Of a DNA stretch of 64,000 nucleotides, positions 32,027 to 34,183 are shown one piece after another; within the stretch, counting starts at the first letter, position 1, and the number at the start of each line of letters is the position of its first letter. The DNA comes from Haloarcula halobia (GTDB lineage Archaea; Halobacteriota; Halobacteria; Halobacteriales; Haloarculaceae), in assembly GCF_029338255.1 (NCBI RefSeq), contig NZ_CP119787.1, positions 2,867,631 to 2,931,630 on the forward strand, read 5' to 3'. Under the pieces are notes generated by a model, which saw only the letters and a list, made by a program, of their open reading frames with translations, searched no databases and had not been told where the DNA came from. Made by a program: the position numbers and the translations under genes.

Positions 32027-33364
32027 TCACTCGACGAAGCGGTACTTGCGCTCGCCCATGCGGCCCCAGCCGTCGAAGACGAACTCCTGTTCGGGGGCGG
32101 TGAACTCCTCGGCGTCGGATTCCTGCTCGTGGTTGTGGACGTCGTGGACCTCCTCGTACTCCGCGAAGGTGAGGTCGTGCCGGTTGCGGATCTGCTCGTC
32201 GACGTTCAGCTAGGCGATCTCCTGCTCCCAGCCGGGGACCACGCGCTCGGCGTGGACCTCGGCCTGGGCACCCGAGCCGTAGGAGGCCACGAGCAGTTGC
32301 TGGTCGTCCAGGTCGCGACCGTGCTCGCGGGCGTGCTTGAGCCCGGAGGCACGTGCGAGGTGGACCGAACCGGTGTACCAGTTGCCGACGTGGCGCGCGA
32401 TGTCGAGCGTCGGTTCGATGGTGTCGGCGTACCAGTCACGGTAGCGCTCGGTCTCGGTCAGCGCGTCCGTGTACTCCCTGATGGCGGCGTGCCACTCGTC
32501 GTCGGTCTCGAAGTCCGCGGGCATCGGCTGATGGCCGATCTCCTCGGCGAGCAGGTCCTCGACGTCGGTCCCGCGGACGATGTGGCGATACCCCAGCGCC
32601 GCGGCCTTCCGGACCATCCCCGGGAAGGGGGTGTGAAACGGGATGAGCGGGTAGTCCTCGGGGTGGATGTCGCCGGCCACCGAGGCGTAGTCGTCGAGCG
32701 CTTCGCGCATGCGAGCCAGGTAGACGTTCACCGAGCGCTTGCCGTCGACGGAGGGGAACTGCTGGTTTGGCTTGAGGAAGTCCGTCTCGTCGGCGCTGCC
32801 AAAGCCCTGCTCGGCCGAGAGTTCGACCAGACCCGGGTCCTCGGCGACGAGCATCGCCACGGCACCGGCCCCCTGCGTCGCTTCGCCGGGGTCGTCGCGG
32901 GCGTAGAGCGCGGTGTCGGTGGCGATGACGATGGCCGCCCGGCCGCGGTTGCGTCCGGCGCGAATCCAGTTGTACGCGTCGTCGAGGCTCTGTGTCCCCG
33001 AGATGCACGCGAACTTGCGCTCGCCCTTGTTGGCGTGGTGGAAGTCGCCGTCGTAGACCTGCTCGAGACAGCCCGCGACGTACGTGGAGACGGGCTTCGA
33101 GTTGTCGAAGGAGCTCTCCGTGGCCACGTCGATGCGGCCGATGTCCTCGGGCGAGAGCCCCTTGCGCTCCATCAGTCGATAGGCGGCGTTGGCCCCCATC
33201 GTGACGATGTCCTCGTAGACGTCCGGGAACGAGGAGGCGTGCAGTCCCAGGCCCTTGGTGTACTTCTCGGGGTCGTCGCCTTGCGCGGGCGCGAACGTCT
33301 CGGCGAGGTCGAGTTTGAGTTTGCCGGTCCAGATCTCTATCGCGTCGATGCCGACGGCAGTCAT
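32027..33364 (-). pseudogene. hmgB: HMG-CoA synthase interrupted by in-frame amber codon
   Basis: The enzyme makes HMG-CoA for mevalonate and thus archaeal lipids. From ATG 33364 the frame runs 384 codons with all catalytic regions: Glu in VATESSFD, Cys in FACISGTQS, His in IPFHTPFPGM. It then meets TAG at 32210-32212 (GWEQEIA, stop, LNVDEQ). The same frame continues for 60 more good codons (YEEVHDVHNHEQ, FDGWGRMGERKYRF) to TGA at 32027. With the amber read through, length would be 445 residues, normal for haloarchaeal HMG-CoA synthase. This is a recent nonsense change, a sequence error or recoding. Confidence 0.85.
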
Positions 33365-33436
33365 ACCTGGAGGGTCACTGCGGCCGCTTAAGGGTTTGTC
33401 GACTGTTAGTTCGACGGTCGTCGAAATAGTTTTTCA

Positions 33437-33447
33437 TAGGCCTTGAG
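33437..33447 (+). repeat. Left copy of 11-bp direct repeat
   Basis: TAGGCCTTGAG occurs here and again, identically, at 34173-34183. The copies lie directly outside a pair of inverted repeats and look like a target-site duplication. Confidence 0.75.
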
Positions 33448-34172
33448 AGCCTGTCATAGAAACGTTCACAGGGATTTGATTTCGACCCAGATAGAACGAA
33501 ATAGACGCTCAATGTGTCTGCGTATCGATCATCTGCCTTGCTTGTCCCAGCTGATCTGCGCCAATACTTAACACACTTCTTGACCTATTCTCAGATGCGG
33601 TTAGAACAATGGTAAGAAACGTTATCATCGTCGGAGCTGGTCGCGTTGGCCGCCGCGTTGCAGAACAACTCAGTGAGGTGCAGAACACGGTCACTATCGT
33701 TGAATTGGACCCCGAGAAGTGCGAGCAGGTGTCGCCAAAGGTCAGCCAGGTAATCGAAGGTGATGGAACGGACCCCGACATCCTCGAGCAAACTGATCTG
33801 GCCACCGCCGATGTCTTTGCTGCCCTCACAAATGACACCCGTGTGAACATCTCTGCCGCTGAGATGGTCCACGAGATGGCCCCTAATGTCCGAACGATCC
33901 TTCGGATTTCCCGGGATGGTGAGGAGGATTACGGGCATCGTCGGTTCGTTGACAGCATTGTATATCCTGCGGCCGCGGGTGCAACTGTCGCAGTTGATCA
34001 AATCACCAGAGATTGAAGCCGACAAACGGGGCGATAGAGAGGAGCGAGTGGATTACATTTGCCATGAATCCGTTTCGCCCGACCGAGAGAAAGAGCGCGC
34101 AAGAGACACCTACTGTACTGAGCGTTCCTTGCTGGACGCGACAGGGTTTGCGAACCGTTCTATGACACGCTG
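33448..34172 (+). mobile_element. Candidate non-autonomous mobile element carrying a TrkA-N gene
   Basis: The 725-bp segment has terminal inverted repeats: positions 33448-33470 match the reverse complement of 34149-34171 at 19 of 23 bases, with core TGTCATAGAA shared exactly. Perfect 11-bp direct repeats (TAGGCCTTGAG) sit outside the ends; the right end has one unpaired base. The interior has lower GC than the neighbours and holds a single gene (33609-34016) with no transposase. Direct repeats of 10-12 bp are made by some IS4/ISH8-type elements. Movement by a transposase acting in trans is an inference. Confidence 0.6.
33609..34016 (+). CDS. Stand-alone TrkA-N (RCK/KTN) domain protein
   Basis: This 135-residue nucleotide-binding protein is mostly one Rossmann fold. 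It has VIIVGAGRVGRRVAEQL, an acidic end of strand 2 (IVELDPEKC), and GDGTDPDILEQ, as in TrkA subunits that gate K+ transporters by NAD(H) or other ligands. The C-terminal TrkA-C domain is absent and there is no transporter nearby. Codon use is more A/T-rich than in the flanking genes. It lies inside a segment bounded by inverted and direct repeats, so it is probably acquired. Confidence 0.85.
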   Translation: MVRNVIIVGAGRVGRRVAEQLSEVQNTVTIVELDPEKCEQVSPKVSQVIEGDGTDPDILEQTDLATADVFAALTNDTRVNISAAEMVHEMAPNVRTILRISRDGEEDYGHRRFVDSIVYPAAAGATVAVDQITRD

Positions 34173-34183
34173 TAGGCCTTGAG
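34173..34183 (+). repeat. Right copy of 11-bp direct repeat
   Basis: This TAGGCCTTGAG is identical to 33437-33447 and one base beyond the right inverted repeat. Confidence 0.75.

Follow-up and report, generated by a model that had tools for sequence, protein, structure and literature searches.

How does a stand-alone TrkA-N gene come to lie between inverted repeats and a short direct repeat upstream of hmgB, with no transposase of its own? We addressed this question in a 64-kb stretch of DNA, hereafter the window, and by comparison with the remainder of the genome and with other haloarchaea. Our preferred answer, to which we assign a probability of roughly 0.93, is that positions 33447-34172 are a mobile insertion cassette (MIC) with ISH11-type (IS5 family) ends, in which a TrkA-N gene takes the place of the transposase and which would be moved in trans. 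An earlier, sequence-only reading had likewise proposed a non-autonomous element that carries a cargo gene, lacks a transposase and is moved in trans, and the comparisons below suggest that it was right in this respect. The features of the locus are as follows.

32210-33364, minus strand: hmgB (HMG-CoA synthase), the adjoining gene outside the element, whose start is 83 bp from the left end.
33437-33446, no strand: left target-site duplication TAGGCCTTGA, an exact repeat; an 11th base, G, also matches.
33447-33523, plus strand: left type-A end, with the ISH11-type terminal repeat GAGCCTGTCATAGAA and conserved subterminal sequence.
33609-34016, plus strand: cargo gene for a stand-alone 135-aa TrkA-N (RCK_N) NAD-binding protein, from the open reading frame and Pfam PF02254.
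34111-34172, minus strand: right type-A end, CAGCGTGTCATAGAANNNTTCGCAAACCC read inward; 60 bp are 97% identical to the sibling cassette.
34173-34182, no strand: right target-site duplication TAGGCCTTGA, an exact repeat.

The element (33447-34172, 726 bp) encloses one intact gene between imperfect terminal inverted repeats. The repeats proposed from the letters alone were recovered at their positions: 33448-33470 matches the reverse complement of 34149-34171 at 19 of 23 bases, and the perfect 11-bp direct repeat TAGGCCTTGAG lies at 33437-33447 and 34173-34183. No further exact copy of this 11-mer occurs within the 64-kb window, where relaxed matches are at about the chance level. The element is also lower in G+C than its flanks (53.3% versus 62.1%). 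We ranked perfect 9-bp repeats located 200-3000 bp apart throughout the window, scoring their inner edges for inverted complementarity. The top pair was formed by the element’s ends (19/23), a score that none of 60 dinucleotide shuffles reached (the best, 18/23, was seen once). Shuffling by itself is only moderately decisive evidence against chance repeats; these are ruled out mainly by homology, as a sibling cassette at another position of the genome has both ends around a different gene. Since all aligned right ends of this type (type A) terminate in ...CACGCTG, with an invariant terminal base, the element probably spans 33447-34172 with a 10-bp duplication TAGGCCTTGA, and the matching 11th base (G) of the direct repeat is best read as a coincidence.

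The sibling, C1:230962-231599, emerged from a whole-genome search with the segment, the search for further copies with the same ends that the sequence-only reading had called for. Its left 75 bp are 100% identical to the first 75 bp of the left type-A end (33447-33523) and its right 60 bp are 97% identical to the right end, while its interior holds a different cargo, an unrelated 151-aa lipoprotein-like gene. In a global alignment of the two cassettes the ends are 97% and 95% identical and the flanks are unrelated. The plasmid homologues of the lipoprotein that we examined have no convincing cassette ends. In the sister species G013, the joined flanks of the lipoprotein cassette align unbroken, revealing a contiguous empty site, and the same holds for an element that combines ISH11 with a passenger gene.

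Among 29 same-genus relatives whose hmgB upstream DNA was read, none has the cassette. No precise empty site for the window copy was found in same-genus genomes, because the intergenic DNA beyond approximately 33425 is not conserved among relatives; in G013, nucleotide synteny resumes only about 2.4 kb past the element. An effect of the insertion on the hmgB promoter had been suggested and appears doubtful, as the conserved upstream block stops near 33425, with about 20 bp between it and the insertion.

Two end types, A (that of the window element) and B, recur across the order. Taken together, their conserved ends measure about 75-100 bp on the left and 60-85 bp on the right; for type B, conservation extends over approximately 100 bp (left) and 85 bp (right). 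Type-A ends enclose, for example, a response-regulator/PAS/histidine kinase cargo on Haloarcula sinaiiensis pHsi540, a 68-aa membrane protein on Haloarcula sinaiiensis pHsi139, and a CNNM transporter and a HicA pair in other same-genus genomes. The type-A right end with adjoining sequence is common to G028:C9 and Haloarcula japonica NZ_AOLY01000009.1 (L078). Type-B ends surround approximately 25 different cargoes, including a proteasome-like protein in Halorussus marinus and an Mrr nuclease in a same-genus genome, and other cargoes among the paired elements are an AspBHI-like nuclease and a pilin. The type-B left end was detected in 37 of 293 genomes of the order (20 of 81 genera) and nowhere in a phage collection; the type-A right end was detected in 61 of the 293 genomes at a laxer threshold, at which weak matches are less certain. 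Automatic pairing yielded 33 elements, with some end calls approximate. Only two pairs of the 33 interiors are related, and none of the 33 contains an ISH11 transposase. Exact duplications of at least 6 bp border 3 of 8 type-A elements versus 0 of 56 swapped-flank controls, and 6 of 25 type-B elements versus 3 of 600 controls.

Defense-like cargo was also seen, at L158 3052-4533, L243 345-1971, L154 2041-2879 and L237 316-1847; it comprises Mrr and AspBHI-like restriction nucleases, HicA with a DUF7387 partner, and an HNH endonuclease.

At five sites, each represented by two genomes or plasmids (L177/L178, L237/L184, L242/L246, L260/L261 and L241/L243), flanks and both ends are shared and the interiors are unrelated. 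The L177/L178 pair consists of two plasmids of one H. sinaiiensis strain, with the same site, the same ends and different cargo, and this site is empty in Haloarcula hispanica pHH126. The remaining four pairs are of type B; the L237/L184 pair agrees at 98-99% in the flanks and at 93-97% in the ends, with nothing detectable in common between the interiors. For four of the five pairs, the site-mate has the closest match to each end among all compared elements (in L242/L246, to the left end only). The age of the ends therefore mostly matches that of the site, and the change would have been confined to the interior. These alignments indicate that cargo has been replaced in place at the five sites, for which homologous recombination via the long ends would be the simplest mechanism. 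On our best reading, the window element belongs to a widespread family whose conserved ends also act as seams for cargo exchange.

The five sites lend some plausibility to a similar history upstream of hmgB, in which the TrkA-N gene would have replaced an earlier cargo in a cassette already present there. This history is compatible with the cassette reading. We consider it possible and rather unlikely: the hmgB site is known in one filled state only, and the exact duplication points to a fairly recent insertion and leaves the arrival of the cargo undated. Far less probable is that the TrkA-N gene is host DNA caught between independent end-like sequences or decayed IS remnants and never moved as a unit. 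Single orphan ends do exist in the genome (C1:274947, 3247747 and others), and the cassette reading has to accommodate imperfect terminal repeats and a TrkA-N cargo known in one copy only. Against such chance capture stand the perfect 10-bp duplication and the match of both ends, at 100% and 97%, to a single sibling. Moreover, the sequence-only reading had held that the repeats would be coincidental if relatives kept TrkA-N at this locus with unrelated flanks and no second copies existed, and no relative has a TrkA-N gene there.

Which transposase would have moved the cassette? A search of the genome with a terminal-sequence pattern recovered six complete IS copies, each 1061 or 1067 bp long and one of them frameshifted. 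The other five, with a full-length 330-aa transposase, are ISH11-like and lie on the same chromosome as the cassette; an autonomous IS with a shared end was among the things that the sequence-only reading had proposed to look for. The transposase of the 1067-bp IS is a DDE_Tnp_1 protein, 91.8% identical to an annotated ISH11 family transposase of Halobacterium salinarum. No ISH11 transposase is encoded in the 64-kb window or inside the element. The outer ~20 bp of the IS copies match the cassette ends; only the outer 20-25 bp are shared, so the cassette does not seem to have arisen from these copies by simple deletion.

The sequence-only reading had pointed to IS4/ISH8-type transposition, for which it gave duplications of 10-12 bp; a 10-bp duplication is known for ISH8 and ISH2 (PMC10264941). 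This length is not diagnostic, as duplications of ISH11-type elements in our analysis span 6-12 bp, and the published values are 6, 8 and 9 bp (ISH11) and 6 and 8 bp (MITEHsal2; PMC10264941). We rejected an IS4/ISH8 origin, and regard mobilization by such a transposase as highly improbable, given that the ends match the genome’s ISH11-like copies and that sibling duplications vary in length; the separation from ISH8 is based on these two observations. Equally improbable is that a site-specific recombinase inserted the element as an integron-like cassette: conserved ends around single genes that vary, and their replacement at fixed sites, would suit this view, but the target duplications are of variable sequence and the inverted-repeat ends are shared with a DDE-transposase IS.

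The cassette reading can be restated as a sequence of steps. An ISH11-like transposase supplied from elsewhere in the same cell would recognize the cassette ends and move the cassette; the insertion would have duplicated 10 bp of target upstream of hmgB; and new cargo may enter by recombination within the long conserved ends (~75-100 bp left, 60-85 bp right). The sequence basis consists of the ends, the duplication, the sibling, the autonomous copies, the empty sites of two siblings, the relatives and the five same-site cargo differences, from which we infer that an ISH11-like enzyme catalyzes the move.

In terms of class, the element combines two IS-type inverted repeats and a target duplication, a passenger gene (TrkA-N only) without a transposase, and related autonomous ISH11-like copies, five in number, in the same genome, as a MIC does. 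It has ISH11-type ends only, without the DDE transposase of an autonomous ISH11/IS5 element, and at 726 bp with an intact conserved gene it is not a short, non-coding MITE. A separate 403-bp ISH11-type element, at C1:553557-553959 (L045 2058-2460) and present in numerous haloarchaeal genera, could be mistaken for a MITE without coding capacity. In 14 of 14 copies, however, the gene for a 66-aa ribbon-helix-helix protein is intact (median pN/pS 0.157). Further copies are found at L056-L058, L060, L063, L064, L068, L071, L072, L077, L080, L087 and L089. The 403-bp element may be the published MITEHsal2 (411-413 bp).

The cargo is a predicted TrkA-N potassium-channel/transporter regulator of host type. 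As had been noted, the stand-alone TrkA-N protein is the sole plausible gene product of the element, and it covers the entire PF02254 domain (Pfam, E 3.7e-29). Its closest relative, in the same genus (G009), is 62% identical and is encoded by a resident 135-aa gene without ISH11 ends; plasmid homologues reach 44% identity at most, and no second TrkA-N cassette was found. Relative to the G009 gene, dN is ~0.29 (pS 0.74, dS ~3.1). With synonymous sites near saturation, this value is consistent with a functional protein. The gene is presumably expressed and may have a K+-related regulatory role.

Cassettes of changing cargo have counterparts elsewhere. In plants, Pack-MULE and Pack-TIR elements are non-autonomous terminal repeats that acquire many unrelated host genes, as the cassettes do here; they differ in being eukaryotic, in carrying mostly gene fragments instead of whole genes, and in their transposase superfamily. 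The closest bacterial parallel is MIC231 of Bacillus cereus (IS231, IS4 family), which has IS ends, a target duplication and a passenger in place of the transposase, and is modular and mobilized in trans, as we propose here (PMC3913671, PMC2266710). Unlike MIC231, our cassettes are archaeal, have IS5/ISH11 ends with a long, conserved subterminal part that bears no relation to the parent IS, include many more cargo types, and exchange cargo at fixed sites. ISH11 of Halobacterium salinarum (IS5 family) shares the terminal repeat and the variable duplications (6-9 bp in ISH11; PMC10264941), but it is autonomous and only the outer ~20-25 bp are common to both. The sequence-only reading knew of no such layout among described haloarchaeal elements, which is too strong, as ISH2 is transposase-free with a protein-coding ORF (PMC3119063; PMC10264941). 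ISH2 and the ISH8-related HqIRS32 are, like the cassette, haloarchaeal and non-autonomous with a non-transposase ORF (PMC3119063, PMC10264941); they differ in having ISH8-type ends and one fixed short ORF instead of changing cargo.

Transposase-less passenger cassettes were described from the Bacillus IS231 group, with a 2008 review stating that such modularity was unseen in other IS families (PMC2266710), and qnr plasmids were later proposed to have similar cassettes (PMC3913671). In the open literature searched, we found no description of haloarchaeal MICs, ISH11-based cassettes or same-site cargo replacement. The element is thus best read as a known kind, a MIC, of which an ISH11-based, promiscuous archaeal variant is new. 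A comparable cassette system would then exist on another IS family and in many haloarchaeal genera, with cargo spanning restriction enzymes, toxin-antitoxin, signaling and ion-regulation genes. To our knowledge, integron-like capture is little documented in archaea, and the cassettes offer a concrete route for single-gene transfer there. The same-site swaps open the exchange step to direct tests in species that can be cultured. More tentatively, and at somewhat less than even odds, the end pairs of 60-100 bp may serve as sockets for clade-wide, integron-independent gene exchange among haloarchaea, spread by ISH11-type transposase and with cargo precisely replaced. If so, the incoming cargo would be regulators, restriction enzymes, toxin-antitoxin pairs and transporters.

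Several further elements of this genome were recorded. An ISH11-type IS with a passenger gene, at C1:2865588-2867261 (L048 2089-3762), ends 370 bp before the window. It consists of a frameshifted transposase and a HalOD1-domain ORF between 30-bp inverted repeats; the 6 bp GCGGTA are duplicated at its borders, and G013 has a clean empty site for it. Close to both termini of contig C1 lie IS copies or ends that are nearly identical and have matching flanks (C1:1179-2239 and C1:3286232-3287292; C1:7258 and C1:3292313), which suggests a duplication or an assembly overlap. A type-B cassette, L008 3176-6016 (C1:2656175-2659015), was later hit by an IS6-family element.
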